Origin: Planctomycetota bacterium
GTDB lineage: Bacteria > Planctomycetota > Phycisphaerae > WQYP01
NCBI GenBank assembly: GCA_021808485.1
Contig: JAKBBN010000010.1
Coordinates: 1 to 55,235 of the forward strand
Length of the DNA stretch: 55,235 nucleotides
Direction of reading: 5' to 3'
Position 1 is the stretch's first letter. Each line of letters opens with the position of its first letter. This document shows positions 9,401 through 31,159 of the stretch, one piece after another. The notes beneath the pieces are model-generated. The model was not told the origin of the DNA, searched no databases, and saw only the letters and a list, made by a program, of their open reading frames with translations. The translations under genes and the position numbers were made by a program.

Positions 9401-9630
9401 CGCGGTTTCCGGAACTTGACGCCCTGCACCGTGAATTGCACCGGCAGATCGCGGAAATTGCCGCCGGCGCGGTGCCCGTGCGGGATGGATTGCGGCATTT
9501 ACGCGATATCAGCCGGTCCCTGCGCGATGGGATAGAACAATTTCTTTCCGCGCCGCCGGAATCCGCGCCGGGGACGTCATACGGGCCGTGCGTGACTGCC
9601 GATCAAAATAACGCCGCACAGAATCAATAG
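6478..9630 (+). CDS. Multidomain c-di-GMP signalling protein GAF-GAF-PAS-GGDEF-EAL-CZB
   Basis: A 1050-residue soluble protein. Order: GAF-like (about 20-185), second GAF-like (about 200-355), PAS (about 372-490, ILITDANERIIYANDA), GGDEF (about 500-660), EAL (about 680-930) and a C-terminal helical domain. GGDEF is canonical (577-581) with an inhibitory I-site RDAD five residues before it, so cyclase activity is likely. EAL is at 707-709 (VEALARL) and DDLGSAYASL, KLDHTF and QGYAIAPP are present; the usual LEITE block reads LEILE, so phosphodiesterase activity is plausible but not certain. The end has H939xxW942, C968 and H984xxxH988, the 3His-1Cys pattern of CZB zinc-binding domains. No membrane helix. 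Its 3' end overlaps the convergent transporter gene by 54 bp. Confidence 0.9.
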   Translation: MQEIAQNVAVATGRADCDGNHRKLLELCERLFSSETETELLGELVQKLVHSWGADIAWIGRPDADGRLSLDEYAGPEAADYMRQARIAVIGEAVPPGPAARCWKSRQTIMINDWNDEPVMQPWRELGFGWRCSVSVPLLGRRGMAGILSLYSRQPGYFAPMLDVLTALGRLLGMSLEQIQNRQVRRAYENLLDAMTLVQQETSEGADEEQIVRAFTSRFFSVGFFSLIDVLRAESDGGHRIVAVCSNRPDLSDSFCGHILRPSAGTPVPFFLRAFNSNTAVCSNDYPDDVHLQTFEYGEWRTLATELKLRQFAAIPVRVDKQVWGTLCLGANRGRVDFLSMVELFTRLGDVLGVKIEKRRHEIRLEDSLKRLRLTEKVFASTQEGILITDANERIIYANDALTRITGYTAAELTGKTPRMFKSGSHDRYFYQRLWSSVHHTGRWQGEIWNRRKNGELIPVIISISALADEAGQISHYVGVSTDITDLKAKEAHLRQLAASDFLTGLPNRYALEQHLQTALPRAARHKRGLALAILDLDLFKPVNDAHGHAAGDQILRELAVRLKASLRDADFLARLGGDEFVMVLEEILEKKDLDQVLNRIREAVDKPFVIDQANVQIKASIGVALHAAGAPQKNDLLRDADMALYSVKQDRGRSGSFYAVYDTCVDTPAIGGRSGDDFFPRLIQTGLEVHYQPVLSVPAGEIREVEALARLRSGSELYFPGQFLSRLSPLDIRRLSLAVLEESLRQLHAWDAAGRPVRIAVNFEALDLLDTEMLRDVARIIDHSGIPTQRITLEILEGGEILSHRGAKQAMQRFKDLGVHIAMDDLGSAYASLLRVRELPVDVIKLDHTFCVGLQRRPKDLQFLMSVLDLARGLTVDCVIEGVENPDVFAAVRTLGARFVQGYAIAPPAPAAQMLQLLKTSPLKLDPPEGSLAAYAGHLIWYRSVVEILLRTPGIFSPLAAGDISTCPLTRQLARFPELDALHRELHRQIAEIAAGAVPVRDGLRHLRDISRSLRDGIEQFLSAPPESAPGTSYGPCVTADQNNAAQNQ

Positions 9631-9993
9631 GATTCCCAGCCAGCGGGTCGGATATATCCGCTCATGCAGAAGCCACGCCGAACAGAGCGCCACCGTTGCA
9701 AAACAGATGCTGCCCAGCGGAAATGCGACCGCCAGCGGCAGAAGATGCAGTGTCCATGTCCAAAAAACAGCTTCGGTCAAAAAAGAGATGATGGCAATCT
9801 GCACCCACAAGTTGGTGAAAATGCGGCGAAGCATGGCGCCCGGGCCGTGCGGCATGTCCCGCGTGCCTATTTTCAGCGTAAGCTGCCCGGCGGTTTCCAG
9901 AATGACGGCCGCGCCCACGCAGGCAAAGCCGGTAAACGTGCCGTCGGAAAACGTCAAATGCGCGACGCCGGAAGCCGGAAAAGCGGGGATCAT
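9577..9993 (-). CDS. Small four-helix EamA/SMR-type transporter, subunit B
   Basis: A 138-residue membrane protein with about four transmembrane helices, the size of SMR/half-EamA transporters such as ArnE/ArnF or EmrE-like pairs. Visible features are a helix containing ETAGQLTLK (a Glu in the first helix, common in SMR proteins), LLPLAVAFPLGSICFATVAL and a last helix LGILLILCGVILIG. It overlaps the preceding transporter gene by 4 bp and is the last gene of the minus-strand biosynthetic operon. The pairing suggests a heterodimer exporting the operon's product or moving a lipid-linked intermediate (inference). The 3' end overlaps the convergent c-di-GMP gene. Confidence 0.75.
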   Translation of the reverse strand: MIPAFPASGVAHLTFSDGTFTGFACVGAAVILETAGQLTLKIGTRDMPHGPGAMLRRIFTNLWVQIAIISFLTEAVFWTWTLHLLPLAVAFPLGSICFATVALCSAWLLHERIYPTRWLGILLILCGVILIGSHARPV

Positions 9994-10442
9994 GCCGTGC
10001 CCCCATCCGGAGTCGATCCGTGCGCCGGGTCATTCACGACCGCCGCGGAAGATCGCGCGCCGGGCGCCGTACGGCTTACCAGCGCCACACCGGCCAGCAC
10101 CAGTAGAATTCCGATCATTTCGCGGGGGGAAACCTGTTCATGAAAAAAGATTGCGGCACTGGCCGTAACGGTCACATAGCTCAGCGCGGTAATGGGCTGG
10201 GCGAAACTAAGATCCGCCAGCGCCAGCACCATCATCCAGTTGAAAAGCTGCCACACATGCAGAAACATGCTGGCGATAAACAGCGGTTTAACCAGTGTGC
10301 CGGTAAGGATGGCCAGGGGCCGGCCGCCGGCCGGAATGGAGGCTTTCCAGAACACCTGAACCGTTGTGTCCAGTGCAATGGCCAGGACCAGGCCGAGAAA
10401 CAGCAAGCCACGCCGCCGCGGGTGCAGATGGGCGGGTGTCAT
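9990..10442 (-). CDS. Small four-helix EamA/SMR-type transporter, subunit A
   Basis: A 150-residue membrane protein with about four helices (GLLFLGLVLAIALDTTVQVF first; last GILLVLAGVALVS) and a polar C-terminal tail of about 20 residues. The segment ADLSFAQPITALSYVTVTA matches the 'A....AYPL..L..V....' signature of drug/metabolite transporters. It overlaps the SGNH gene upstream by 4 bp and the second transporter downstream by 4 bp, which suggests translational coupling and fixed stoichiometry. A heterodimer with its neighbour is inferred. The substrate is unknown. Confidence 0.75.
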   Translation of the reverse strand: MTPAHLHPRRRGLLFLGLVLAIALDTTVQVFWKASIPAGGRPLAILTGTLVKPLFIASMFLHVWQLFNWMMVLALADLSFAQPITALSYVTVTASAAIFFHEQVSPREMIGILLVLAGVALVSRTAPGARSSAAVVNDPAHGSTPDGGTA

Positions 10443-11167
10443 GCGGGCATCCTTCGGAAAGGTATTTCTTCCTGCAACAATATCCGCCGCAACACCGGTT
10501 CAAGCTGCCGGGCGATTATTTCATGGGCTTGCCGGCTCGGATGCACGCCGTCCGGGCCGCACATTTGTTCAGGCGGCTGCATATGCAGGGCCTGGCCATA
10601 GTCCACAAGCGGGCAAGCCATGCGCTCCGCCACACGCGCGGCCGCAAGACGAAAATGCTGCAGACCGACATCGGATCGCTCCTGCCCGCCATTGGCGGCG
10701 ATCATGGCGGTAACGTCTTTTCCGCTGAGATGCGACAAATACGGACCGCGCACCGCCAGGTAGTGGTTGGGCATGTCCGTCAGGACGGGAATCGCGCCGG
10801 CGGCTTTCACCTTTCCGGCCAGCGTTTCAAGATTATGCTCGTAGGTTTCCACTTTTACGCGGCTCCGGCCGATCCGGCCGCCGCTGATCACAAATCGCCG
10901 CCATTCCACATCCGCGTCATTGCCCCCAAGCATGATCAGCACCGCGTCCGGCTTATGGGTCAGGAGCAGCTGCTCCAAAATGGGCAGGGCGTTGACCGTG
11001 GTGCGGTGAATGTCGGCATCCACATGGATGCGCACACCGGGTAATCCGTCGGCTATCAATTCCGTGTAAGACGGATGAACAGAGCCGACGATATCGTTGA
11101 TGCGCAGTTCGGCCACACCCAGGGAGATGCTGTCTCCAATGATCAGAAGCTCCGTGCACTTAGACAT
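10439..11167 (-). CDS. SGNH/GDSL-family hydrolase
   Basis: A 242-residue protein with the SGNH fold signatures. Block I is LLIIGDSISLG (catalytic Ser in GDS). Block III is MLGGNDADVEW (GGND, oxyanion Asn). Block V is CGPDGVHPS (catalytic Asp and His). There is no signal peptide, so it acts in the cytoplasm, probably as an esterase, thioesterase or acyltransferase. The start overlaps the PaaK-like gene by 8 bp and the end overlaps the transporter by 4 bp. In this operon it could release or transfer an acyl product made by the adenylating enzyme (inference). Confidence 0.8.
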   Translation of the reverse strand: MSKCTELLIIGDSISLGVAELRINDIVGSVHPSYTELIADGLPGVRIHVDADIHRTTVNALPILEQLLLTHKPDAVLIMLGGNDADVEWRRFVISGGRIGRSRVKVETYEHNLETLAGKVKAAGAIPVLTDMPNHYLAVRGPYLSHLSGKDVTAMIAANGGQERSDVGLQHFRLAAARVAERMACPLVDYGQALHMQPPEQMCGPDGVHPSRQAHEIIARQLEPVLRRILLQEEIPFRRMPA

Positions 11168-12533
11168 GCAGCGCCTCCGTGGAATGACAGGCCGGATCCG
11201 CCGCCGCGGGTTCCGCCGCGACCGGCGAATAACGCAGGTCCAGCATCCGCTTGAGTTTGCGGGCCACGCGCAAAGTCCCGGGGCGGTGAATGACGATACG
11301 CATGTCGAAAATGCCGATGGCCAGGTTTTTCATCAAATCCGGATACTGCTCCCGTGCGTGGCGGTAAATGGCGTTCTCCAGGTCATCCCGGCCGCCTTCC
11401 CCGGCGGCTTCCACGTTGAGCTCAAGTATCTCCCGTACGCCTTCAAGTCGGAACACCACCTGCCAGTCATGGGCAAGGCCGGGAATGCCCCGCAGAATAT
11501 TTTCAAACATCAGCGGGTAAAGGTTGCCCCCGCTGGCGACCACCAGTTCATCCCGGCGACCGCGCAGGCGGGCCATTCTCATGCCCTGGCGGCCGCACGG
11601 ACAAAGGCCGGGAAGAATGCGCGTGACATCCCGCGTGCGGTAGCGCACCAGCGGCATCACGCGGCGCTGGAGCGTGGTGAAGACGAGTTCACCGTAGCCG
11701 TCCGCACCCGCTTCAATGACTTCCGGAAGATAATTAAAGTCGTCCATATGATAGCCATCAAAGGCCGAGCACGGCTGATATCCCAGCGATCCGCCGAGTT
11801 CCACGCTGCCGTAACCCATGCGGACTTTTGCACCCTGCCAAACCTGCGTCATCCAGGGAATGGCGTCCGGCGGCATCTCTTCCGCGCCGCCGATCAGCAG
11901 TTTAAGTTTGACACCGCCCTGGCGCTCCGCGATCTCGGTGAGGCGGATAAGCCATGTGGGCTCGCCCAGGACAACGGAAAAATTGTACTGCCGCATCCGG
12001 CGGTAAACTTCCAGGGGATCCACTTTGCCGAAGGCCATGCAGAAATTGCCCGACCGCATCAGGGCGTAGTGCGCCAGCATGCCGGGAATCCACATGGAAA
12101 AATCAAAACAATTGGCGACGCGGTCTTCCGGTCCGATCCCCATCAGATGCAGGCCGGCAGCCATCAATTGGCCGATGCCCACCAGTTCCCGCTGGCTGTA
12201 ATAGACCTGCTTGTTTTTTCCACTGGTGCCGGAGGATTCAAATACGATGGAAGGCGGCCGGCAGATAAACGCCTCCGGATCGGCGGTGATATCTTCCGGC
12301 ATGGTATAAAAGTCGCCCAGGTCCTGCGGGCGGTGCACCGCCGCGGGATCAATGCCTCTCCGGGCGAAGGCCTGCCTGTAAAAACGCGAATGCTTTGCGA
12401 CATACCGCACGGTCCGGCGGAAATTGTGATTCCGCAGAAAAGCAAGGGCCGGCTGCGGCATGGCATTATAAACGCCGGCCACGGCGGCGGGCGCCATGCG
12501 GTCGGCGAACGTGTTGATAATTGATGTCAGCAT
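11160..12533 (-). CDS. PaaK / coenzyme F390 synthetase-like adenylate-forming enzyme
   Basis: A 457-residue member of the phenylacetate-CoA ligase (PaaK)-like branch of adenylate-forming enzymes. Motifs: the P-loop-like SIVFESSGTSGKNKQVYYS (about 95), GGAEEMPPDAIPWM, MGYGSVELGGS (aromatic-acid/AMP-binding block), YRTRDVTRILPG and a Cys-rich CPCGRQG typical of this branch. The expected reaction is ATP-dependent activation of a carboxylate to an acyl-AMP, then transfer to a thiol or amine; the substrate cannot be read from sequence. AGGGGAG lies 8 bases before the ATG. It overlaps the SGNH gene. Together with the aminotransferase and M20 genes it suggests amide or thioester chemistry in a small-molecule pathway. 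Confidence 0.8.
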   Translation of the reverse strand: MLTSIINTFADRMAPAAVAGVYNAMPQPALAFLRNHNFRRTVRYVAKHSRFYRQAFARRGIDPAAVHRPQDLGDFYTMPEDITADPEAFICRPPSIVFESSGTSGKNKQVYYSQRELVGIGQLMAAGLHLMGIGPEDRVANCFDFSMWIPGMLAHYALMRSGNFCMAFGKVDPLEVYRRMRQYNFSVVLGEPTWLIRLTEIAERQGGVKLKLLIGGAEEMPPDAIPWMTQVWQGAKVRMGYGSVELGGSLGYQPCSAFDGYHMDDFNYLPEVIEAGADGYGELVFTTLQRRVMPLVRYRTRDVTRILPGLCPCGRQGMRMARLRGRRDELVVASGGNLYPLMFENILRGIPGLAHDWQVVFRLEGVREILELNVEAAGEGGRDDLENAIYRHAREQYPDLMKNLAIGIFDMRIVIHRPGTLRVARKLKRMLDLRYSPVAAEPAAADPACHSTEALHV

Positions 12534-12716
12534 TTATGGATTCTCCCCTGCGGCCCGCCGTGGTGCCTGATGCACGGCGACAGCGCCGCTTGACGCCGTC
12601 GGACAAGGCCGGCCGCCTCCATGGCCCCGTTCGCCCGCAACATCCCCGCGGAAACCGTGTTGACCGCAGGCTCCCTGCGGGCCGGCCGGGCATGGCATTG
12701 GTTTTACAATGGTCAT
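12534..12716 (-). CDS. Possible small operon gene (60 aa), uncertain
   Basis: The 180-bp gap between the aminotransferase and PaaK-like genes is spanned exactly by one frame. Its ATG overlaps the aminotransferase stop (ATGA) and its TAA ends one base before the next ATG. Such packing is normal for real genes in this operon. The 60 residues are Gly/Pro/Arg-rich with several Cys and His and match nothing I know. A second frame (residues such as AGMLRANGAMEAAGLVRRR) runs through the same bases and ends over the PaaK start. No carrier-protein Ser motif (DSL) occurs. It could be an untranslated spacer. Confidence 0.25.
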   Translation of the reverse strand: MTIVKPMPCPAGPQGACGQHGFRGDVAGERGHGGGRPCPTASSGAVAVHQAPRRAAGENP

Positions 12717-14107
12717 TTGGACTGCACCTCGGCCATGGCGGCATTTATCGCGGCGATCGCAATGGCCAGATCATCCGCACCGTGCGCCGCACTGACAAAC
12801 CAGCAGGCGGATCCGGAACTGTTGATATGGATACCCCGGCGCAGCAAACCGTGGCGGAACGTGTTGTAACGCGTGCTGTCCGCGGACAGCAGGTCGCGAT
12901 AGTGCTTCAGCGGCCGGCCATCGCGATTAAATACCACCTGGAACATGGTGCCGGCGCCCTGCACAACGCAGGGAATATTGCAGTCGTGGGCGGCACGCCG
13001 AATCGCCTGCATCAGGGCGCATCCATGGCTTTCCATGGATTCCAGCACCCCTGGCTGGTTCAAGTGCCGCAGGGTTGCCAGGGCGGCCGCGGCGCATAAT
13101 GGATTGCCGTTATAGGTTCCGCCATGCTTGACTGTGTTGGCGGCAACCGGTTCCATGACGGCCCGTCGTCCGGAAAAGGCACTGACCGGCAGCCCGCCGC
13201 CGAGGGCTTTGCTGAACACGGCAAGATCGGGAACCACGCCGAAAGCTTCCGCGGCGCCGCCCCGGGCCAGACGGAATCCGGTGACAATTTCATCATAAAT
13301 CATCAGGATACCGCGCCGGTCACATTCGCCGCGGATCCATTCCAAAAAGCCTTCTTCCGGGCCGATACAGGCGTTGTTGGCCACCAGCGGTTCGATGATG
13401 ATCGCGGCGAGTTCCTGTTCATGGGCGTTTAATATGGCCTGCACGATTTCCCGATGATTCCACGGGGCGATAATCACATCGTGCACAACACCCGCGGGGA
13501 TGCCGCGGGAATGGGCCTGGCTGGAGGGATGCTGCAGCGGTCCGGCATCCGAAAGAGCGGGACGATTGCTGATGGCCAGCACATCCACCCACCCGTGATA
13601 ATGCCCCTCGAATTTCAGGATGCGGGTGCGGCCGGTAAAGCCGCGTGCCGCACGGATCGCGCCGCAAATCGCCTCTGACCCTGAATTTGAAAATCGGACA
13701 AGGTCCGCGCCGGGAACCATGCGCGTAATCTGTTCGGCCAGTTCCACCTCCACGGTATTGCATGTGCCGAACATGGTGCCCAAAGCCAGTTGGCGCGATA
13801 CCGCGTCGGTAAGCGCCGGAACCGCATGCCCCAGCACCACGCTGCCGTAACTCAACAGGTAGTCAATAAACTCATGGCCGTCGGCATCCCACACGCGTGA
13901 CCCCGCGCCGCGCGCCATATACAGCGGAAAAGGCAGCGGGCCGGTGGAGGTGGACCTTGCCGATGAGCTGATGCCGCCGGCAAGAACTTTCTTCGCCCGT
14001 GCAAACCATTGTTCGCTGGCGGGCGCCGCAGCGCCGGCCGACAATCCCAACCCGGCGGCTTGCGCCTGCGGCAAATCAACAGGTTTACGGGCAAGGGTGT
14101 CTGGCAT
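12713..14107 (-). CDS. Glutamate-1-semialdehyde 2,1-aminomutase-type class III aminotransferase
   Basis: A 464-residue PLP enzyme of aminotransferase class III, GSA-aminomutase branch. Visible: AKKVLAGGISSSAR at the N-terminus, GHEFIDYLLSYGSVVLGH, FSNSGSEAICGAIRAARGFT (PLP phosphate), FEGHYHGW, IYDEIVTGFRLA (Asp binding the pyridine N), the Schiff-base Lys in FSKALGGGLPVSAFSG and HGGTYNGNP. The N-terminus is about 25 residues longer than HemL. Its place in an operon with an adenylating enzyme, M20 hydrolase and HAD phosphatase argues that it makes an amino group in a specialised product rather than 5-aminolevulinate (inference). AAGGAAC precedes the ATG at 14107. Confidence 0.85.
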   Translation of the reverse strand: MPDTLARKPVDLPQAQAAGLGLSAGAAAPASEQWFARAKKVLAGGISSSARSTSTGPLPFPLYMARGAGSRVWDADGHEFIDYLLSYGSVVLGHAVPALTDAVSRQLALGTMFGTCNTVEVELAEQITRMVPGADLVRFSNSGSEAICGAIRAARGFTGRTRILKFEGHYHGWVDVLAISNRPALSDAGPLQHPSSQAHSRGIPAGVVHDVIIAPWNHREIVQAILNAHEQELAAIIIEPLVANNACIGPEEGFLEWIRGECDRRGILMIYDEIVTGFRLARGGAAEAFGVVPDLAVFSKALGGGLPVSAFSGRRAVMEPVAANTVKHGGTYNGNPLCAAAALATLRHLNQPGVLESMESHGCALMQAIRRAAHDCNIPCVVQGAGTMFQVVFNRDGRPLKHYRDLLSADSTRYNTFRHGLLRRGIHINSSGSACWFVSAAHGADDLAIAIAAINAAMAEVQSK

Positions 14108-14131
14108 TGCATCAAGTTCCTTTAATTCAGA

Positions 14132-15457
14132 TCAGCGGGGCAGATGGGTCCAGCGGATCGCAAGTTCGGCCATTTCCCGTGCGGCCTTCCGTACATCGGA
14201 TATATCAACGTATTCATCCGCGCCATGCGCCTGGGCCAGAGAACCCGGACCCCAGACCAGTGTCGGCGTGCCGGTAAGACCCCAACGCAGGCCGGCTTCA
14301 CACCCTGAATTAAAGGCGCACCAGCCTTCCTTGGCAAGGTCTTCACCTGATTTTTTCGACAGTGCCGAAACGGCCTGCCACGCCGTGACGCATAGCGGGT
14401 GATCCGGCCGGGTATGGTGGCCGGTGTATTCCTCGGTAAAGTTTATGCCGCAGCGGGCCTTTCCGGCGGATGCGGCTTGCAGCCGGGATTGGAGTTCATC
14501 GGTAAATCGCTTTTTCCAGCGGCTGATATCGTCATCCGGAAGCAGTTCAAAATAACCCTCGCAGGTCACCTGTTCAATCACCATTCCCTGCCATGTTCCG
14601 CCTTGAATGCGATCGACCGTGATCGGCCGGAGAAAGGGATACGCCGCAAACTGACCGGTCAACGGCCCGGCGCATTCACCGGAATCCGGGGCTTGAAAAG
14701 CCGCCTGCATATCGTCCAGGGCGGCCAGCGCCAGGCGGGCATCGGCCAGGGCGTCATGCCCCAGCCATTTGACGGTGCCGTGCACGGCGCGGCCCGTGAA
14801 CATCAACTGGAATCGCAGTCCCGCGCGGGAACTGCAGCGGGGCCGGCCTTCGGTTGGTTCCAGAATGACGGCGGCATCGGCTTTGTATCCGCGGGCCACG
14901 CTGGTAAGGGTGCCCAGCCCCACGCAATCTTCTTCGCCCGGAACAATTTCCAGCAGCACATCTCCCGGCAGTCCCTGCGGAAATTGCCGCTTTAATTCCA
15001 CCAGCGCCAAAAGTGCGCTGACGAGCGGCCCCTTCGTATCGCAGGCTCCGCGGCCGTAAAGCCTGTCGCCCTGCCGTACTGCCGTCCACGGGTCGTGCCG
15101 CCATTGTTGAAATTCCGGTGCATCAACCACATCGCTATGGGCGTTAAAAAGGATGGATCGGCCGTTTCCACAACCCGCGATCCGCAGGACCAATGTGGGC
15201 CGGTCGGCCAGCGGCAGGTGTTTGGCCCGTGTACAGGGCATATCCGGCAGGGCCGCCTCACTGGTTTCAAAGCAATCCGCGATAAGGCCCTGCTCCTCCG
15301 CCCACCGCTGCAGATAATGCACGAGCGGCGCTTCGCCGCCGCTGACGGATTTAAATGCGATAAGGTCTTGCAGCAGGCGGGCTGTACAGTCCGCATCCGG
15401 CAGCGTACCGGCGGCTGATATTCCTGCGGTCGGGGCATCCATTGTCATTGCGGCCAT
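14132..15457 (-). CDS. M20-family metallohydrolase (ArgE/DapE-like)
   Basis: A 441-residue zinc peptidase/deacylase of the M20 family. Metal-site motifs in order: NAHSDVVDAP (His), GRGACDTKGPL (bridging Asp), VPGEEDCVG (catalytic Glu and metal Glu), EPTEG, and SLAQAHGADEYVDI near the end (final His). The dimerisation lid lies between about 205 and 330. Such enzymes remove an acyl group from an amine (ArgE, DapE) or cleave a small amide. I start at ATG 15457, with GGAA upstream; an in-frame TTG lies two codons earlier. It lies 24 bp upstream of the aminotransferase. A protecting-group removal step fits the gene set (inference). Confidence 0.85.
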   Translation of the reverse strand: MAAMTMDAPTAGISAAGTLPDADCTARLLQDLIAFKSVSGGEAPLVHYLQRWAEEQGLIADCFETSEAALPDMPCTRAKHLPLADRPTLVLRIAGCGNGRSILFNAHSDVVDAPEFQQWRHDPWTAVRQGDRLYGRGACDTKGPLVSALLALVELKRQFPQGLPGDVLLEIVPGEEDCVGLGTLTSVARGYKADAAVILEPTEGRPRCSSRAGLRFQLMFTGRAVHGTVKWLGHDALADARLALAALDDMQAAFQAPDSGECAGPLTGQFAAYPFLRPITVDRIQGGTWQGMVIEQVTCEGYFELLPDDDISRWKKRFTDELQSRLQAASAGKARCGINFTEEYTGHHTRPDHPLCVTAWQAVSALSKKSGEDLAKEGWCAFNSGCEAGLRWGLTGTPTLVWGPGSLAQAHGADEYVDISDVRKAAREMAELAIRWTHLPR

Positions 15458-15514
15458 TATCAAAATTCCAGGAATATGCCGGAACCAGTATTCCCGGCAT
15501 CGGCATCAACCCTG

Positions 15515-16204
15515 TTAAACCGCTTCAACCTTGGCCGACCAGGCGCGGGAAAGCACGGCGGTTACATCGTGAAGCGTCACGTACGGGATAAATGGGATAT
15601 GTTCATGAGCAAGTGTGTTGGCCAGTATACCCTTGGCAAATACGAAATCCGCACTGCGGGCGGGACAAAGATCACTGCGGCCGTCGCCAATATAAACCGT
15701 TCTGCGCGCCGGATGGCGCAACGCATCGGCACTGGCGCATTTGCAATGCGCCGCATTGGACACGCATTCCCTGCTTGCATGCGGACAGGAAAGCGTCATG
15801 CGGCCGGCGCGATGCGAAACCTTATTCGCCCGGATTTCCAGTTTGGTGATGCCGTGGCGCAGCAGGATCCGCCGGATAAAGCGTTCAATGCCGTCAGAAA
15901 GCACGGCGGTTGGAACCCCATGTTGCCGAAGCAGCGCCAGCAAGGGTCCAATGCCGGGGTCAAGTTCTATCTGGTCAAGGAAGGAGTTAAGCTGCTCACG
16001 GCTAATGTTGATAAGCGAGAATTCCTGTGACAGACATTCGCGGGAACCAATAAGCCCCGCCAGCCAACGTTCTTCGATCAATCGCCAGGACTCATTGATG
16101 GCAAAGTTACGAATTAACTCATCCAGCACATCTTTGCGCGAAATGGTTCCATCAAAGTCGATCCAAACTTGGAGTGACTCAGGATTGGATAACAAAACAT
16201 TCAC
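15515..16204 (-). CDS. HAD-IB phosphatase, MtnX/SerB-like
   Basis: A 229-residue HAD-superfamily phosphatase. Motif I is WIDFDGTISRKD (nucleophile DxD). Motif II is VLSDGIERF. Motif III is YIGDGRSDLCPA with Asp residues for Mg. The helical cap between motifs I and II and the SDLCPA ending resemble MtnX-like (hydroxyketo-methylthiopentenyl-phosphate phosphatase) and phosphoserine-phosphatase members. A CSNAAHCKC cluster (CxxxxxxCxC) sits before motif III. It is the first gene of the minus-strand operon, so a phosphorylated precursor is probably dephosphorylated in this pathway (inference). Start GTG 16204; an in-frame TTG lies one codon before. Confidence 0.8.
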   Translation of the reverse strand: MNVLLSNPESLQVWIDFDGTISRKDVLDELIRNFAINESWRLIEERWLAGLIGSRECLSQEFSLINISREQLNSFLDQIELDPGIGPLLALLRQHGVPTAVLSDGIERFIRRILLRHGITKLEIRANKVSHRAGRMTLSCPHASRECVSNAAHCKCASADALRHPARRTVYIGDGRSDLCPARSADFVFAKGILANTLAHEHIPFIPYVTLHDVTAVLSRAWSAKVEAV

Positions 16205-16405
16205 CAATGCGAATATCCTTTTCTATTCAAGCGCCCGCGGCAAACCGAATCATAGCAACAAGTTAATAATTTTTGTAGCAACTCTGTCAGGTTTTTCCGC
16301 GTTGCAGGGGTAAATATATGCCTCCGCAAACGGCCTTTTCCGCATTAAACCCTCCAAAATATGGGCTGATTACCGTAAAAACAAATATTATGCTACTATT
16401 GGAAT
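16205..16405. promoter_or_regulatory. Divergent promoter region of the biosynthetic operon and JAMM gene
   Basis: This 200-bp AT-rich spacer must hold the promoters of the minus-strand operon starting at 16204 and of the plus-strand metalloprotease at 16406. It is visibly richer in A/T than its flanks. TATGCTACTATTGGAATAT just before 16406 offers a -10-like TACTAT on the plus strand, but I found no convincing -35. No palindromic operator stands out. Confidence 0.35.
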
Positions 16406-16918
16406 ATGATTAAATTGATGGATAACGTGCACCAACAATTATATGTAAGTGCACGCATGGCCTACCCTGCCGAGGCCTGCGGTCTTCTTGTGGCGCCTTG
16501 TGTTGATGGCCCGCAATTCCCGGTCACCGGACCAAATCCGGTGGAACCCAAAGGGGCGGAGGCTTTCGGCGACAGCCGGATCACGATCGTGGATTTCCTG
16601 CCCGCGGAAAATGCAGCGCCGCCTCATTTGAGGAACAGTCGATTCCAGATGGAACCTCGCTTCATTTTCGAGGCGCAGCGCCGCTGCCGGGAACGCAGTC
16701 GGGAGATTGCCGGCGTTTTCCACAGCCACCCGGATCATATCCCGGTTCCAAGTGCCACCGATTTGCGGGAAGCCTGGCCGATATATCTGTATCTGATTCT
16801 GCATGTGCGGCAGGATGGGTTTGGTTCGCTGATGGCCTGGCGGCTGGCGACGCAGGGCGGAGGGTTTGATCCGCTGCAGATCAGTGCAAGCCAGGCGCTG
16901 CCGCCGGCACGGATTTAG
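16406..16918 (+). CDS. JAMM/MPN-domain (M67-type) metalloprotease
   Basis: A 170-residue single-domain JAB/MPN protein. The JAMM zinc motif is complete: Glu23 in PAEACGLL, then His106 and His108 in VFHSHPDHIPVPSATD, with Ser117 and Asp119. Bacterial stand-alone members remove C-terminal residues or tails from ubiquitin-like sulfur carriers, or act in cysteine biosynthesis (family knowledge). No ThiS/MoaD-like or E1-like gene is beside it, so the substrate is unknown. A loop of about 30 residues (45-75) is inserted before the HSH motif. The cation-efflux gene begins 48 bp downstream on the same strand. Confidence 0.85.
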   Translation: MIKLMDNVHQQLYVSARMAYPAEACGLLVAPCVDGPQFPVTGPNPVEPKGAEAFGDSRITIVDFLPAENAAPPHLRNSRFQMEPRFIFEAQRRCRERSREIAGVFHSHPDHIPVPSATDLREAWPIYLYLILHVRQDGFGSLMAWRLATQGGGFDPLQISASQALPPARI

Positions 16919-16966
16919 ACGACTGCTGCGGACGGATACGGCGATGGCGGGTATCATAAATGCACG

Positions 16967-18064
16967 ATGACGGAAAAATCGCACATAGCACGGATATCGC
17001 TGCTGGCCAGCGCCCTTTTGTCGGCGGTAAAGCTGGTGGTCGGAATTCTGACCGGATCGCTGGCGCTGTTGTCGGATGGGATCCACAGCGGGGTCGATTC
17101 GCTGGCGACGCTGATCACGCTTATTTCCCTGCAGATCAGTGATCGGCCCGCCGATGCAACGCACAATTACGGCCATGGCAAAGTGGAGAACCTTTCGGCA
17201 TTCGCGGAAAGCATCACGCTGGGGCTTGCGGCGTTATGGATCGGCTCGCAGGCGGCGGTATTTCTGGCGTCTGCCCATAAAACACCGCCGGATGTGAGCC
17301 TCGCGGCGATTGCCGTCGTCGCGGTTTCGATTCTGGTTGATGCCTGGCGCAGCCTCCGGTTAAGTTGGGCGGCCCGCACCTACGGTAGTCAGGCGCTGCA
17401 GGCCAGCAGTGTTCATTTCAGCATGGATCTGTTAAGCAGCGGCGTGGTGATGATAAGCCTGCTGCTGGTGCGGTTCGGCGGACCAAGGTTTGTTCTTGCC
17501 GACAGCATCGGGGCCATTGTCGTGGCCGGCGTAATGGTGGTGGCCGGTCTGCGCCTGGGGCGGCATGCCGTGGATGTCCTGGTGGACCGGGCGCCGGCCG
17601 GTTTGGAACAGCGCCTGCAGGAATCGTTGCGGCGCGTGGCCGGTGTGGCGGATGTGCCGCGCGTGCGCGCCCGGCAGGCCGGCAATCGCCGCTTCGTGGA
17701 TGTTACAATCCTGGTTGATCCCAAAGTCACCATTGAAGAGGGCCACCGAATCGCCACGCTGGTGGAAATGGCCGCCGCTGAAACCGACCCGGGCATCGAC
17801 ATAACGGTGCATGTGGAACCCGGACCGGCGGACCAGGGCCCGGTGGATATGGTCTACTCTTTGGCGGCAGGCTTGAACCTGCAGGTGCATGCCGTTCACG
17901 CCTTCAATATCGACGGTCATTTATATGTCGGTTTTCATGTGGAATTTCCGGCGGTGGATTCCGTGGCCAAGGCCCATGCCGCCGTCAGCGAATTGGAAAA
18001 CCGCATCCGCCTGCGTCTGCCGGCGGTGGCGGAAATTAACAGCCACATCGAACCGGCGCCCTGA
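16967..18064 (+). CDS. Cation diffusion facilitator (CDF) with tandem C-terminal domains
   Basis: A 365-residue metal-ion/proton antiporter of the inner membrane. There are about six helices in residues 1-205. LLSDGIHSGVDSLAT carries the Asp residues of the metal site in helix 2, NYGHGKVENLSAF the linking loop, and HFSMDLLSSG the HxxxD site of helix 5. The HxxxD/DxxxD arrangement fits Zn, Fe or Co/Ni transport. Two similar ferredoxin-like cytoplasmic domains follow, about 212-285 (ending DITVHVEP) and about 295-365 (ending INSHIEP), where the usual protein has one. It follows the JAMM gene by 48 bp. Confidence 0.88.
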   Translation: MTEKSHIARISLLASALLSAVKLVVGILTGSLALLSDGIHSGVDSLATLITLISLQISDRPADATHNYGHGKVENLSAFAESITLGLAALWIGSQAAVFLASAHKTPPDVSLAAIAVVAVSILVDAWRSLRLSWAARTYGSQALQASSVHFSMDLLSSGVVMISLLLVRFGGPRFVLADSIGAIVVAGVMVVAGLRLGRHAVDVLVDRAPAGLEQRLQESLRRVAGVADVPRVRARQAGNRRFVDVTILVDPKVTIEEGHRIATLVEMAAAETDPGIDITVHVEPGPADQGPVDMVYSLAAGLNLQVHAVHAFNIDGHLYVGFHVEFPAVDSVAKAHAAVSELENRIRLRLPAVAEINSHIEPAP

Positions 18065-19201: not shown

Positions 19202-20134
19202 TTATATCCTATCACGAACCGCCATCTGCGCCAGCCGATGGCACAGCGAATCAAAATCCAGGCCGCTATGGGCGGCCGCTTTGGGCAGCAATGAATGGCC
19301 GGTAAAGCCCGGCAGTGTGTTTATTTCAAGAACGTAAGGCGCCTGTTCACGCAAGCTGACCATAACATCAACCCGCGCCAGGTGCCGTGCGCCAACCTGA
19401 CTGTAGGTTTGAATCGCCGCCGCCGCGGTCCGGCGCAATATTTCCTGCGGCAGATCTATCTGAAAATTGTACTCCGTATCATCGCGGATATATTTGGCCT
19501 GATAATCGTAAAACTGCGTTTTCGGCCGGATTTCGATAATCGGCAGCGCCTTGCCGTCCAATATGCCCACCGTCAATTCCGGCCCCTGAATGTACGCCTC
19601 AATCAACATTGTGGAATACCGGCCAAGAGTGTCGGCGAGGTGATCGCGTGCTTCCTGCGCGCTATGGCAAATTTTGCAGGCTACCGAGCTGCCTTCACTC
19701 GCCGGTTTGATGATGCACGGGAAACCGATGCCCGCCGGCTCCCAGGCCGGGGTAAAATCCCCGCGGCCGACCACCTGCCACGCAGGCGTGGGTATCCCCG
19801 CCCGATGCAGCACGGTTTTGGCGGCCTGCTTATCCATGGCCAGGCGGCTGGCCGCGGCCGTTGACCCCACAAAAGGGATGCCGCGGGATTCCAGAATGGT
19901 CTGCAATCCGCCGTCTTCGCCGAATTCCCCATGCAGCACCGGGAAAACCAGGTCGCAGGGACGGTGATTCAGCGCGGACAAATTATCCGGACCGATATCG
20001 GCGGTGAACACGCGATGGCCCTTGCGCGTCAATGCCGCGGCCACACCCGCACCGCTTTTAAGGGAAACCTCCCGCTCCGCGGAAATTCCTCCGCAAAGAA
20101 CGGTGATATCGCAGGGTTGAAAGGAGTCTTCCAT
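19202..20134 (-). CDS. ddl: D-alanine--D-alanine ligase
   Basis: A 310-residue ATP-grasp ligase that joins two D-Ala for peptidoglycan precursors. Signatures: VLCGGISAEREVSLKSG (N-terminal domain), VLHGEFGEDGGLQ, FVGSTAAASRLAMDKQAAK, IIKPASEGSSVA (omega-loop Ser), and the Mg/ATP site ARVDVMV...VLEINTLPGFTGHSLLPKAA. The length is that of a standard DdlB. It is placed between murB and the FtsQ-like gene, on the same strand with short gaps, as in dcw clusters. The start ATG 20134 gives the full N-terminal strand. Confidence 0.95.
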   Translation of the reverse strand: MEDSFQPCDITVLCGGISAEREVSLKSGAGVAAALTRKGHRVFTADIGPDNLSALNHRPCDLVFPVLHGEFGEDGGLQTILESRGIPFVGSTAAASRLAMDKQAAKTVLHRAGIPTPAWQVVGRGDFTPAWEPAGIGFPCIIKPASEGSSVACKICHSAQEARDHLADTLGRYSTMLIEAYIQGPELTVGILDGKALPIIEIRPKTQFYDYQAKYIRDDTEYNFQIDLPQEILRRTAAAAIQTYSQVGARHLARVDVMVSLREQAPYVLEINTLPGFTGHSLLPKAAAHSGLDFDSLCHRLAQMAVRDRI

Positions 20135-20213
20135 GACAGTCCTTAAAATAATGATGCCCGGTCGGCCGGCGGATCGGTCAAACAGTCGAACCCCGGCATT
20201 TCCAATCCGCCGG

Positions 20214-21092
20214 TTACCAAATCACAACTTCCGGCTCCAGGTCAATTTTCATTGTATCATGCACGCGGGATTTCACGGTTTCAATCAATTCAATCACGTC
20301 GGCGGCCTTCGCCTGCGGGTCGGCTACGATGAAATTGGCGTGTTGTGTGGAAATTTCCGCGCCGCCCACGCGCAGGCCCTTAAGCCCCGCCTGATCAATA
20401 ATCGCCCCGGCGGATTTGCCGTTGACATTGCGGAAAATGCAGCCGGCGCTGTTCGCCCGAAGCGGCTGCGTGTTTTGTTTATACATCCAGATTTCCTTCA
20501 TTCTTTCGGCCAAACGTTCCGGATTTCCCGGCTCCATGTCAAATGTCGCCGAAAGAATAAATTTGGCGTTGATGTTGCTCTTGCGGTATTCAAACACCAT
20601 GTCATCACGCTTGCGCGTGTCAAGATTACCCGCGGAATCCATGACGCTTATTTCCAATACGCGGGAGCCGATATCGCCGAAAGCGCCGCCGGCGTTCATG
20701 CGAATTTCCCCGCCCACGGATCCCGGAATGCCGGCCAGACATTCCAACCCGCCCAGGCCGGCGCGAACAACCTGCACGACCAGTTTGGCGACATCCTGCC
20801 CGCCGCCGGCGCGAACCTGCGCACCGGAAATTTCCACCTGGTTAAATGCGGGGGCCGTCAGCCGAATGACCGCCCCGTTTACTCCCTGATCCGAAATCAG
20901 CAGGTTGGCGCCGCCGCCAAGAATGCAGGTCGGTATTTTTTCCTCATTTAGCCGTCGCACAATCGCCGAAAGTTCCGCGGCATCACGTGGTTCAATCAAG
21001 TACTTTGCCGGTCCGCCAAGACGGAACCAGGTCAGCGGGGCCAGCGGGACATTGTGCTTGATGATCGGCTCAAAGCCGCTTTGCCAACTCAT
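20214..21092 (-). CDS. murB: UDP-N-acetylenolpyruvoylglucosamine reductase
   Basis: A 292-residue FAD-dependent reductase that makes UDP-MurNAc. Visible: TWFRLGGPAKYLIEP (FAD domain), CILGGGANLLISDQGVNGAV, AGIPGSVGGEIRMNAGGAFGDI, the Arg-containing YRKSN, and the substrate-domain NSAGCIFRN, where Ser/Cys surround the proton donor, then the C-terminal catalytic Glu in DLEPEVVIW. This is a type II-like short MurB. The start overlaps the end of murC by 23 bp, pointing to translational coupling. Confidence 0.95.
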   Translation of the reverse strand: MSWQSGFEPIIKHNVPLAPLTWFRLGGPAKYLIEPRDAAELSAIVRRLNEEKIPTCILGGGANLLISDQGVNGAVIRLTAPAFNQVEISGAQVRAGGGQDVAKLVVQVVRAGLGGLECLAGIPGSVGGEIRMNAGGAFGDIGSRVLEISVMDSAGNLDTRKRDDMVFEYRKSNINAKFILSATFDMEPGNPERLAERMKEIWMYKQNTQPLRANSAGCIFRNVNGKSAGAIIDQAGLKGLRVGGAEISTQHANFIVADPQAKAADVIELIETVKSRVHDTMKIDLEPEVVIW

Positions 21093-22527
21093 GCGTAATC
21101 TTCCAAACCGGGCCTGCGCCCATAGAAACTATCAGATCGCCGGAACGCGCTGCCTGTTGCAGGTGTTCCACAATGTCCCCAAATGACGCCAGATACATGG
21201 CTTCGCGGCCGTTTTCCGTCAATCGCCGCACAAGGTGCCCGGCGTTGACCATGCGGCGGTCTTCATCGGTATCACGCACGAAAAAAATATCCGGAACAAT
21301 GATGATATCCGCGTGGGAAAAACTCCGCGCAAAATCTTCCAGTAAAAGACGCGTGCGGCTGTGCTGGTGCGGCTGAAACACGCAGATCAGCCGTTGCGGG
21401 TTGTATTTTGTCCGCAGGGCCAGCAGGGTGGCGCGAATTTCAGACGGGTGGTGGCCGTAATCGTCCACCAGTGTGATGCCGTGATTTTCACCGATCAACT
21501 GGCTGCGGCGATCCACACCATTAAACTCGCGGATCGCCTTGACGATTACATCCCACGAAATGCCGCAACGATGGGCGATCGCCACCGCCACCAGCGCGTT
21601 GCCCACGTTGTGGCGCCCGGGAATGCTGATATCCAGCCACCCCATTCCCTTTTTGCGGAAATGAACCTGGCAGCGGGTTTTCCCCTCGGATACGGTGATT
21701 TGCGTGGCCGTCCAGTCCGCTTCCATTTCAATGCCATAAGTTTGAATTTCACAACCGGCGGCATTTGCGGATCGACGGCAGTTGCCAGCGCCGGCCTGGG
21801 TAATCAGCAGGCCGTCGGGCGGAAGTTTGTGGGCAAAGTCCGTGAACGCTCCGATAATTTCATCAATATTTTTGTAATAATCGAGATGGTCTTCCTCAAT
21901 ATTAAGGATGGCGGAGATTCGCGGATTAAGATTTAGAAAACTCCGGTCATATTCGCACGCTTCCACCACAAAATAGTCTCCCGCGCCGCCGTGGGAGGAA
22001 CCGCCAAGTTGGCGGCTTTTGGCCCCCACCACATAGGATGGGTCAATGCCGGCCTGACTGAGTATCCACGCGGTCATGGCGGTGGTGGTGGATTTGCCAT
22101 GGGTCCCGGCAATGGCGATGCCATGCTTATACGCCATCACCTTTCCGAGTAATTGTGCGTATTTGTAAATAACCAGCCCGCGACGCCGGGCCGCCGCCAG
22201 TTCCGGATGGTTTTCCTGAATCGCCGCGGAATAAACCACGATTTGAGCATTTTCCGCAAGCCCCTCCGCACTCTGGTTCTCACTGATCCTGATGCCCATT
22301 TCCTGCAGTTTGCGGGTTGTATCCGTGGCTTCCATATCCGTGCCGGTCACAATTGCCCCGGCCCCATGCAGCATGTGCGCCAAACCGCTGACGCCCGTAC
22401 CGCCAATTCCGATAAAATGGACCCTGCGCCCGGCAAAAGCTTCCGCAAGGGTGCGAAGCTCGGCATCAATCGTTGGTTCCGGAATGGTATTCATTGGAAT
22501 TACTTTACGATCCATAACTCTGGTCAT
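21070..22527 (-). CDS. murC: UDP-N-acetylmuramate--L-alanine ligase
   Basis: A 485-residue Mur ligase that adds L-Ala to UDP-MurNAc. Motifs: HFIGIGGTGVSGLAHML (UDP-binding Rossmann), IAGTHGKSTTTAMTAWIL (ATP P-loop), EACEYDRSFLNLNP, LNIEEDHLDYY, the H in GRHNVGNALVA and DDYGHHPSEIRATL of the C-terminal domain. I chose the ATG at 22527 because AGGA lies about 8 bases before it; an in-frame GTG at 22545 and ATG at 22494 are alternatives. It lies 30 bp downstream of murG and overlaps murB. Confidence 0.95.
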   Translation of the reverse strand: MTRVMDRKVIPMNTIPEPTIDAELRTLAEAFAGRRVHFIGIGGTGVSGLAHMLHGAGAIVTGTDMEATDTTRKLQEMGIRISENQSAEGLAENAQIVVYSAAIQENHPELAAARRRGLVIYKYAQLLGKVMAYKHGIAIAGTHGKSTTTAMTAWILSQAGIDPSYVVGAKSRQLGGSSHGGAGDYFVVEACEYDRSFLNLNPRISAILNIEEDHLDYYKNIDEIIGAFTDFAHKLPPDGLLITQAGAGNCRRSANAAGCEIQTYGIEMEADWTATQITVSEGKTRCQVHFRKKGMGWLDISIPGRHNVGNALVAVAIAHRCGISWDVIVKAIREFNGVDRRSQLIGENHGITLVDDYGHHPSEIRATLLALRTKYNPQRLICVFQPHQHSRTRLLLEDFARSFSHADIIIVPDIFFVRDTDEDRRMVNAGHLVRRLTENGREAMYLASFGDIVEHLQQAARSGDLIVSMGAGPVWKITHELAKRL

Positions 22528-22556
22528 ATTCGGTTTTCCTGCCACGGACGGTCAAT

Positions 22557-23852
22557 TTAAATCCCGGTTCGGGACCCGCCGGAAGCTACATCCCGGCTTG
22601 CCATATTTATCGGCCGTTTCCGGGCTTGTTCAATAAGCCAATCCGCCACGACATATGCCGCACCGGGCTTACCCTGTTTCCGGGCATTTTCCGCCATGGA
22701 ATTCAGCCTGGATATGTCCGGCAAAAGGCCCGCAAGGACCGATTTCAGCCCGGCCGCGTTTTTAGCCGCATTCAGCTGATCGGTCAATAAGACGGCGGCA
22801 TCGGCTGCCTGCAATTTTCGGGCATTCGCCGCCTGATGCTGGTCGCGATGGAACGGATATGGAATAAGAATGGATGGAACGCCGCAGGCGGCAAGTTCCG
22901 CGCAGGTACCGGCGCCGGATCGGGCGATCGTCAAATCCGCAACAGCCCACACTGCCGCCATGTCATCGCAATAATCCAACAAATGCCAATGATCCGCGCT
23001 ATAATCCTTTGCTCCGGGCCGAGGCGGGCCGGCCGCCATGGCCGCCTTTATGATCCCCGCCTGATCCATGCCGGTAAGCAGCAATACCTGCCAACCCGCA
23101 AGTTCGCCCACAGGCGTATCAAGCATTCGCAAAAAATCCGCATCCTGGCGCAATTCCACCATCGCCTCATTTATGCTGCGTGCTCCAAGTGATGCACCGG
23201 TCACCACCAATGTGCGGCGGTTGGCCGCAAGCCCCAGCCGCCGAATGCCTTGATCCCGCGGGAGGCTCCACAGGTTGTTGCGAATGGGGCAGCCAATTGA
23301 TTGAATTCGCGAACTGAATTTTTGACTGTACGAATCATCCATGGCCCATTGGGCAAAAACGCAATTTACCTGCCCCATCAAAAACCGGTTGGCCAGACCG
23401 GGTAATGCATCGGGATTCAACAGCCCCACCGGTATGCCCATTCGCCTGCCTACATAGGCCGCCGGGCCGGCGGCATATCCGCCCAGGGCCAGAATGGCGG
23501 CGGTGCGACGCTCGGAAAGGTGGTGCCGCCAGTATTTGCAGGATTGCCGCCACGCGGAATAGAAGGCCGGCCAGGTTAAAGGATTGCGCTTAAGCGGCGT
23601 CACTTTCTGGACAATATAGTTATCGCCAAACCCCTGCAGCAGTCGCCGATCCACGGCGCGGGGTGTGGCTCCCCACGCTATTTCCGCCGGCCCGCCCAGA
23701 CGATCCTTCAACGCTTCCGCCACGGCTATGCCCGGATAAAGGTGCCCCCCCGTGCCGCCGCCGGCGAATACGAAGCTGTAGTCTTCACGATTCGCTGCAC
23801 TAACGGCATGGCTTGATTGCGGATTGGTTTGCCGGCCTGTGTCCTGACTCAC
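22557..23852 (-). CDS. murG: UDP-GlcNAc:lipid I N-acetylglucosaminyltransferase
   Basis: A 431-residue GT28 glycosyltransferase that makes lipid II at the inner membrane. Motifs: FAGGGTGGHLYPGIAVAEAL (G-loop 1), LGGYAAGPAAYVGRRMGIPV (G-loop 2), the LNPDALPGLANRFL acceptor block, GASLGARSINEAM (G-loop 3), and the UDP-GlcNAc site ARSGAGTCAELAACGVPSIL...HRDQHQAANA. It is longer than E. coli MurG (about 355), with about 25 extra N-terminal residues, an insert near 255-285 and a tail of about 20. The start codon is probably GTG. It lies between ftsW and murC. Confidence 0.93.
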   Translation of the reverse strand: MSQDTGRQTNPQSSHAVSAANREDYSFVFAGGGTGGHLYPGIAVAEALKDRLGGPAEIAWGATPRAVDRRLLQGFGDNYIVQKVTPLKRNPLTWPAFYSAWRQSCKYWRHHLSERRTAAILALGGYAAGPAAYVGRRMGIPVGLLNPDALPGLANRFLMGQVNCVFAQWAMDDSYSQKFSSRIQSIGCPIRNNLWSLPRDQGIRRLGLAANRRTLVVTGASLGARSINEAMVELRQDADFLRMLDTPVGELAGWQVLLLTGMDQAGIIKAAMAAGPPRPGAKDYSADHWHLLDYCDDMAAVWAVADLTIARSGAGTCAELAACGVPSILIPYPFHRDQHQAANARKLQAADAAVLLTDQLNAAKNAAGLKSVLAGLLPDISRLNSMAENARKQGKPGAAYVVADWLIEQARKRPINMASRDVASGGSRTGI

Positions 23853-23938
23853 AACTCTGCTTCCACTTGCGTTTCAGCCGGATTACGCTTCCGGCGGATG
23901 GATGTCCGATGGCGTTACAGACCCGTGCCGACGGACAG

Positions 23939-25279
23939 TTACGGCGGCGGGTTGGGAACAGCTCTATTCTCAATTGCCGCTATCGGCAAAGGCGCACCAC
24001 CCGGCGACCCGGGACTGCTTTCTTCGTCCATTCGATTCGCGCGGTCAATGCTCATTAAAAGGCCTATGGCGCCGGCCGTCATGATCCAGCCGGTGCCGCC
24101 GGAAGAAATCAGCGGCAGTGCAATTCCCTTGGTGGGCACCGTCACGGTGACAACGGCAATGTTCATTGCCGCTTGCAGCGCGATGGTGGCCGTACAGCCG
24201 AATGCCGTCATTTGCCCAAACAGGTTCCGACACCGCGAGCCGATGCGCCATCCCGCCAGCGTAAGGCTGGCATACAGCATCACGATGACCATGCACCCGA
24301 AAAAGCCCAGCTCTTCGGCAATAAGGCTGAATATAAAATCCGTGGAATCTTCCGGCAGATAACCCATCTTTTGGATGCCGTTACCCAGGCCGCGCCCCCA
24401 GAAGCCGCCGCTGGCGAATGACAGCAAGGATTGAATGGGATTGTAGCCGGCGCCGCGCGGATCCATGTGCGGGTGCAGAAATATCAAAAGCCGCTCGCGC
24501 CGGTACGGGCTTTTAAGGATCGCAAAATACAGTACCGCCATCGCCGGTGGAACCAGAATAGCCAGGTGCCACCAGCGGCATCCGGCCATCAGCATCAGCA
24601 CCGCGCAAACGCCCACAATAAGCACCGTGGTGCCGAAATCTTCCCGCAGAATCAACAGACACGTTACGCCGATCACGGCGATCAAGGGTACAAAACCGCG
24701 GAAAAAATCCCGGATGTGTTTCTGCCGGTGAACCGCATAAACACCCACGAACACCACCAACGCCCACTTGGCGATTTCCGAGGGTTCAAATCCAATGGTG
24801 TGCGACCCGATATGCACCATCAACCATCGCTTGGCGCCATTGATGCTGGCGCCGAAACGTGTGAGCACCAGCGCCAGGCAAACCAGCGCCAGCAGCATGA
24901 CCCAGGTGGCCGCGGATCGCCACAATGTCGGGCCGATGAGCCGCCGGTAATCAATCCGCCACAAGACGATCATAAACGCGACGGCAATAAGTGCGTGGAG
25001 CACCGGCATACTGATAAAAAAGTGCCGCAGCAGGCCGCTGCGCGCGGTGGATATTCGCGCATCGGCGCTTTGCACCATTAATACGCCGAAGCCCAGCAGC
25101 GTCAGGCAGATGACAAAAAGAAGCTCGTCAAGATTCAGGGAGATAGGCCGCAGGGCGATGCTGATGCCGCGGCCGGCGTTTTTTATACGGGCGACGGTGG
25201 GAGAAGCCAGCACCGCCAAGGGGGATTTCGGCCAGCTGATCCGCGACGGCCACTGCACAGGTTGGGGTTTCTTCGCCAT
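23939..25279 (-). CDS. ftsW: FtsW/RodA-type peptidoglycan glycosyltransferase
   Basis: A 446-residue SEDS-family protein with about ten membrane helices. After about 50 cytoplasmic residues the core carries GFEPSEIAKWALVVF, LREDFGTTVLIVGVC (extracellular loop Asp region), YNPIQSLLSFASGGFWGRGL, LPEDSTDFIFSLIAEELGF and VPTKGIALPLISSGGTG, all SEDS hallmarks. It polymerises lipid II with a partner class B PBP in septal synthesis. Placement before murG identifies FtsW rather than RodA. ATG 25279 is preferred (start of MAKKPQ); an upstream in-frame GTG is at 25321. No pbp gene is adjacent upstream. Confidence 0.93.
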   Translation of the reverse strand: MAKKPQPVQWPSRISWPKSPLAVLASPTVARIKNAGRGISIALRPISLNLDELLFVICLTLLGFGVLMVQSADARISTARSGLLRHFFISMPVLHALIAVAFMIVLWRIDYRRLIGPTLWRSAATWVMLLALVCLALVLTRFGASINGAKRWLMVHIGSHTIGFEPSEIAKWALVVFVGVYAVHRQKHIRDFFRGFVPLIAVIGVTCLLILREDFGTTVLIVGVCAVLMLMAGCRWWHLAILVPPAMAVLYFAILKSPYRRERLLIFLHPHMDPRGAGYNPIQSLLSFASGGFWGRGLGNGIQKMGYLPEDSTDFIFSLIAEELGFFGCMVIVMLYASLTLAGWRIGSRCRNLFGQMTAFGCTATIALQAAMNIAVVTVTVPTKGIALPLISSGGTGWIMTAGAIGLLMSIDRANRMDEESSPGSPGGAPLPIAAIENRAVPNPPP

Positions 25280-31054: not shown

Positions 31055-31159
31055 TAACACCTATCGGGTATTGTAGTGGTTATTTTGCTCGTCCGCGTTG
31101 TCGCGGGGGAGAAACACAATTTCCTTGATTTAAGCTCGCATACAGGGAGGAGCAGCATC

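Follow-up and report, generated by a model that had tools for sequence, protein, structure and literature searches.

Seven genes on the minus strand of a planctomycete genome form a conserved operon. They are one variant of a larger cluster, seemingly undescribed, that occurs in rhizobia, Roseomonas, and Xanthomonas as well. I propose, tentatively, that its product is a building block of the cell envelope with an amine or amide group, the probable form being a lipid-linked head group, and that this is flipped across the inner membrane. A literature search, with most subscription journals outside its coverage, found no published description of the cluster and nothing on DUF6309, on an MtnX-like protein with arginase and EamA, on a GSA-type enzyme with PaaK and SGNH, or on PEP-CTERM with FemAB. 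Nor did it find a characterised pathway with the present combination of genes, in agreement with the first-pass annotation. Judged by sequence, the kind of operon would be a familiar one, synthesis of a head group or small molecule coupled to an ArnE/F-like transporter, and it is the combination of genes that appears to be new.

Layout and conservation of the operon

The window, i.e. the whole stretch of 55,235 nucleotides that was analysed, comes from a planctomycete MAG. The operon runs head to tail from 16207 to 9577:

15515-16207, minus strand: HAD-IB phosphatase, MtnX-like, of a cluster-specific subclade (TIGR01489, invariant motifs, plasmid homologues)
14132-15463, minus strand: M20 (ArgE/DapE-type) metallo-amidohydrolase (PF01546, 85 bits; invariant residues)
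12713-14107, minus strand: GSA-type class III aminotransferase, not HemL (TIGR00713 score, tree, active-site changes)
12534-12712, minus strand: gap of 179 bp between the aminotransferase and ligase genes
11160-12533, minus strand: PaaK-like AMP-forming acyl ligase of the ANL superfamily (PF00501 and PF14535 above cut-off)
10439-11167, minus strand: SGNH acyl hydrolase or acyltransferase (PF13472, 59 bits; catalytic blocks; AlphaFold/Foldseek)
9990-10442, minus strand: SMR/EamA half-transporter 1 (EamA, 26.5 bits; ArnF/ArnE models; fusions in relatives)
9577-9993, minus strand: SMR/EamA half-transporter 2 (EamA, 31.3 bits; ArnE model; fusions in relatives)

All seven reading frames lie in the order and at the positions that the first-pass annotation gave them, its family assignments agree with Pfam and NCBIfam, and the overlaps it gave (8, 4, and 4 bp) hold to the base pair. 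It put the gaps at the start of the operon at 24-60 bp, which holds for HAD-M20 (51 bp, or 57 bp if M20 begins at the in-frame ATG at 15457, a more likely start than 15463) and for M20-aminotransferase (24 bp). The 179 bp between aminotransferase and ligase were overlooked, and they make the block looser than first described. The catalytic motifs, said to be intact, are present in the HAD, M20, aminotransferase, PaaK-like, and SGNH proteins and are invariant in 10-19 relatives. In NCBIfam, all seven proteins stay below the curated equivalog cut-offs. Upstream lie genes for a JAB peptidase and a cation efflux protein.

Elsewhere in the window, near the operon and on the same minus strand (19202-25321), are genes of cell wall and division: Ddl, a Mur ligase, a MurG-type glycosyltransferase, and FtsW/RodA. 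This neighbourhood was not seen adjoining the operon in the relatives that were read. The plus strand has an open frame of 1237 aa with no Pfam match (31076-34789) and, antisense to the PaaK-like gene, one of 475 aa (11097-12524) that is probably a shadow ORF of GC-rich coding DNA.

Sixteen more genomes of the host family (L022-L027, L029, L030, L036, L038-L043, and L046) share the order HAD-M20-aminotransferase-PaaK-SGNH, at about 45-75% identity, varying by gene, and so the block is not the result of chance. By this check of synteny the operon is conserved across the host family, and at least its first four genes are kept in five genomes of the same class outside that family. Of 397 genomes of the class, 26 have a match to the HAD profile, 21 of them among the 28 genomes of the host family and five outside it. 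Of the 151 genomes that both searches covered, 24 have HAD and the very same 24 have the ligase, save for one ligase fragment at the end of a contig (G015), a match that is uncorrected for shared ancestry and that includes three genomes from outside the host family. No ligase orthologue beyond the host was found among 392 genomes sampled across the phylum.

The size of the unit varies. Three genomes (G028, G046, and G524) have only HAD-M20-aminotransferase-PaaK, with no SGNH gene beside them, and these four genes are therefore the invariant core. SMR and SGNH are both absent beside the core in L033, L034, and L098. The SMR pair varies between genera, being present in the host, L026, L029, L038-L041, L043, and L046, and absent beside the operon in L022-L025, L027, and L030. 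The most complete version seen (L099, in G525, 9554-17983) is a single run of nine genes, HAD-M20-GSA-PaaK-SGNH-FemAB-arginase-SMR-SMR, and the version in G125 is split over two contigs, HAD-M20-GSA (L100) and GSA-PaaK-SGNH-FemAB-arginase (L032). The earlier view that the seven genes make up a complete pathway is thus unsupported: only four are constant, SGNH and SMR are variably absent, and L099 and L032 add FemAB-like and arginase-fold proteins.

The enzymes, the transporter, and their nearest named families

The phosphatase scores 108.7 bits against TIGR01489 (cut-off 81.6), and its DFDGT, SD, and GDGxSD motifs and five cysteines, including a C-K-C, are invariant in 19 relatives. It is not a true MtnX, since TIGR03333 gives 86.2 bits against a cut-off of 303.2; plasmid proteins annotated as MtnX-type are only 25-28% identical to it. 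In the M20 protein the metal and catalytic residues H109xD111, D142, E177-E178, E202, and H413 are invariant in 13 relatives, and the nearest solved relative is 3pfo, a putative acetylornithine deacetylase. The ligase exceeds the cut-offs of both PF00501 and PF14535, its ANL motifs (ESSGTxGxNK, YGSVE, YRxxD, RGRRDE, and RKxxR) are invariant in 14 relatives, and its nearest solved relatives are the PaaK structures 4r1l and 2y27. While it shares with PaaK the ANL fold and the adenylation motifs, it is only about 29% identical and its partners are not those of phenylacetate catabolism: there are no paa genes within the operon. True PaaK is rejected, with 132.9 bits against a TIGR02155 cut-off of 646.3. 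The GDS, GGxD, and DxxHP blocks of the SGNH protein are invariant in its relatives. Its AlphaFold model (pLDDT 85.9) finds TesA acyl-CoA thioesterase/lysophospholipase and acetylxylan esterases as best Foldseek matches, and this predicted structure fits acyl release or acyl transfer without choosing between them.

The aminotransferase had been judged unlikely to be HemL, and that judgement stands on the tree and the changes in the active site; the N-terminal extension then cited shows little conservation and counts for nothing. The protein scores 394.3 bits against TIGR00713 (cut-off 527.3), and a true HemL is found elsewhere in the host genome (G000:C107, 593.9 bits). In a maximum-likelihood tree it shares one clade (99/97) with every planctomycete protein of the cluster and with two proteins from Streptomyces plasmids, separate from the HemL clade (100/100) and from the Roseomonas-type enzymes (100/100). 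It has the fold and family of HemL and retains the S-x-x-R motif and the PLP lysine (Lys300 in SKxxG, invariant in relatives), but in the window clade the conserved Glu (E406 type) before the C-terminal F-x-S is Ala (ACWF) and YQAGT has become KHGGT, replacing the Tyr, and the gating loop of the window protein is seven residues longer. The Glu and YQAGT are features of the HemL active site. With its score below cut-off, its separate clade, and these changed residues, HemL identity is rejected. The residues kept and those changed suggest that the enzyme probably still performs transamination near a carboxylate, on another substrate.

Other GSA-type enzymes offer comparisons. The protein matches the structure 4zm3, the 3-aminobenzoate synthase PctV, a GSA-type enzyme recruited to specialised metabolism, with partners that differ entirely from those of the window operon. 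In the guanitoxin pathway GntE, likewise GSA-type and specialised, catalyses a transamination (PMC10367076). The window protein scores 397 bits against the GntE model and 394 against HemL, but the former is far below the cut-off of 525 and the partner genes are entirely different. The closest aminotransferases outside planctomycetes, about 61% identical, are found at two Streptomyces plasmid loci (L053, 13349-16287; L054, 12794-16287) among natural-product-like neighbours: a PhyH dioxygenase, DUF6309 (L053 only), and an aldo/keto reductase or SDR.

The first of the two short membrane proteins falls just below the Pfam cut-off for EamA (26.5 vs. 28.2 bits) and gives 31-33 bits with the ArnF/ArnE models, below their cut-offs; the second, at 31.3 bits, is over the EamA cut-off. 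ArnE and ArnF are the best-scoring models for both halves, and membership is rejected (at best 56.3 vs. 92 and 46.2 vs. 99 bits, for the second half; NF011625/NF002816). The two genes are adjacent and overlap, and in L029 and L031 they are fused as one ORF, supporting the earlier suggestion of one two-part transporter; the proteins are predicted, very probably rightly, to be a heterodimer. ArnE and ArnF handle an amino-sugar carrier lipid. They too, as the 4-amino-4-deoxy-L-arabinose-phosphoundecaprenol flippase, are two short adjacent EamA/SMR halves linked to amine-forming enzymes, but the window halves score under the equivalog cut-offs and none of the enzymes ArnA, B, C, D, or T is encoded within the operon.

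Related clusters in Proteobacteria

A search of plasmids with the HAD protein found 47 proteobacterial records at 36-43% identity, the next proteins, MtnX- or SerB-type, standing at 25-28%. Around these HAD genes lies a common cluster (L057-L071 and L104), for which no name was found, of a class III aminotransferase, an arginase-fold protein, an EamA half, an alpha/beta hydrolase, a FemAB-like acyltransferase, and a second EamA half. Its hosts include Rhizobium, Agrobacterium, Roseomonas, Aureimonas, Azospirillum, and Xanthomonas, and plasmid searches with HAD, FemAB, and arginase-fold proteins return the same genera in matching numbers. The ligase found only generic PaaK-like matches in plasmids, SGNH found none there, and FemAB had no homologue in phage records. 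All six metal ligands of the family are kept in the arginase-fold proteins of the clusters.

The cluster is often enlarged, by a fatty acid desaturase and a cyclopropane synthase (L059-L061 and L070) or by an ACP and a FabF-like synthase (L063, Xanthomonas). In most of the Rhizobium, Agrobacterium, and Bartonella cases it has a two-component system next to it, and in several it also has MipA/OmpV or MacB/TolC genes there. Roseomonas, Aureimonas, and Azospirillum carry a GSA-type aminotransferase, whereas Rhizobium, Agrobacterium, and Xanthomonas carry another enzyme of class III; at least one replacement must therefore have taken place at this step.

Particular versions may be noted. That of Xanthomonas sacchari (L063, 7986-16573) has a DegT-type aminotransferase along with its own ACP and FabF-like synthase. 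On plasmids of bat-associated Bartonella (L064, 7908-11739; L102, 13908-17780) there are HAD, an alpha/beta hydrolase, two EamA/DMT halves, and a DegT aminotransferase beside a two-component system, with the arginase-fold and FemAB homologues on the same plasmids but outside this stretch.

The window operon shares with the clusters of Alphaproteobacteria and Xanthomonas a homologous HAD protein (36-43% identity, with C-K-C in common), a class III aminotransferase, a serine acyl hydrolase, and two ArnE/ArnF-like halves. It differs in having no arginase-fold, FemAB-like, desaturase, ACP/KAS, or two-component genes, in having M20 and PaaK instead, and in the replacement of the alpha/beta hydrolase by SGNH. 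The two versions are joined by the nine-gene run of L099 and the gene sets of G125, the arginase-fold and FemAB-like genes being present in the planctomycete loci L099 and L032. A search of the host genome for hidden partners found none convincing: PF00491 has no match and PF13480 a single short one, unlinked. The phylum-wide sample, which held no positive control, yielded no arginase-type homologue.

What the operon may make

If the envelope reading that I tentatively favour is correct, then family chemistry would assign the steps as follows. The HAD phosphatase would convert a phosphate ester to a hydroxy or keto intermediate, and the GSA-type enzyme, with PLP, an aldehyde or ketone to an amine. 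The PaaK-like ligase would activate a carboxylate, by way of acyl-AMP, to acyl-CoA for formation of an amide or ester, the M20 enzyme would yield the final amine or acid by cleaving off an acyl or amide group, and SGNH would transfer or trim an acyl group. The two SMR halves would then serve as one heterodimeric, ArnE/ArnF-like flippase.

Joint function is suggested by the order of genes, which is kept within the host family and by five other genomes of its class, and by the co-occurrence of HAD and ligase. Lipid is suggested by L099, which connects the operon to proteobacterial clusters with a desaturase, a cyclopropane synthase, or ACP/FabF-like proteins, and the envelope by relatives that adjoin two-component systems with MipA/OmpV or MacB/TolC and by a MacB-type ABC exporter just downstream of the operon in three host-family genomes (L040, L043, and L046). 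The best matches and natural fusions of the SMR halves point the same way. A modified lipid head group, one of the products mooted in the first-pass annotation, is tentatively favoured by the proteobacterial relatives. Against it, no gene of the window is lipid-specific in itself, lipid genes being confined to distant relatives, and the ArnE/ArnF scores are below those of membership. Some genomes have no SMR and/or SGNH gene next to the core, so export is either inessential to the core chemistry or supplied elsewhere. Two distinct class III aminotransferases are in use among the proteobacterial clusters, so the chemistry may differ between versions.

The Streptomyces neighbours, PhyH and DUF6309 with an aldo/keto reductase or SDR, also weigh against a lipid and suggest a soluble natural product. 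The operon might then make a small diffusible amino compound or amide, with no link to lipid, that the SMR pair exports. The use of GSA-type enzymes in natural-product pathways (the GntE score and the 4zm3 match) agrees with this idea. I nonetheless consider it doubtful: the desaturase, cyclopropane synthase, ACP/KAS, and neighbouring envelope-stress genes of the related clusters point to membranes, and most genomes of one family carry the operon, unlike the patchy distribution usual for secondary metabolism.

It is improbable that the amine or amide block is destined for a cell-surface polysaccharide, attached to glycan by a neighbouring glycosyltransferase system. A family 1/4 glycosyltransferase does directly follow the operon in seven loci (L022, L024, L026, L030, L038, L041, and L042), with another upstream in L026, L038, and L041, the versions of Bartonella and A. 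larrymoorei have rhamnan or glycosyltransferase genes nearby, and the ArnE/ArnF substrate carries an amino sugar. The window operon, however, adjoins no glycosyltransferase, and neither do several relatives (L023, L025, L033, and L034). Quite improbable is a mere sharing of a promoter by a phosphatase, aminoacylase, aminotransferase, and ligase of different salvage routes: every enzyme is from a promiscuous superfamily, and the 179-bp gap and the losses of SGNH/SMR show that the unit can split, but it is hard to explain without joint function how HAD and ligase come to match across 151 genomes, with three positives outside the host family, or how the order of four genes persists across several families.

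The envelope reading can be extended, speculatively and with the chances rather against it, to an undescribed class of biosynthesis-and-flip operons that crosses phyla, of which the window operon would be one branch. Its members, in Planctomycetota, Alphaproteobacteria, and Xanthomonas, would make an amine-bearing lipid or head group, many of them under adjacent two-component regulation as a response of the envelope. Were the cluster to make a new envelope lipid or head group, this would explain why plant-associated, clinical, and mine-water bacteria have a group of genes now annotated piecemeal (MtnX-like phosphatase, 'HemL', arginase, EamA, and GNAT), and would provide a defined set of enzymes.

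Some annotations of glutamate-1-semialdehyde aminomutase in such clusters are probably wrong already from the present data. The alphaproteobacterial cluster aminotransferases at L057 (7950-9293), L058 (7950-9287), and L068 (6249-7589) make up a separate clade that excludes HemL, and so some of their annotations (where there is one) as glutamate-1-semialdehyde aminomutase or aspartate aminotransferase are probably in error.
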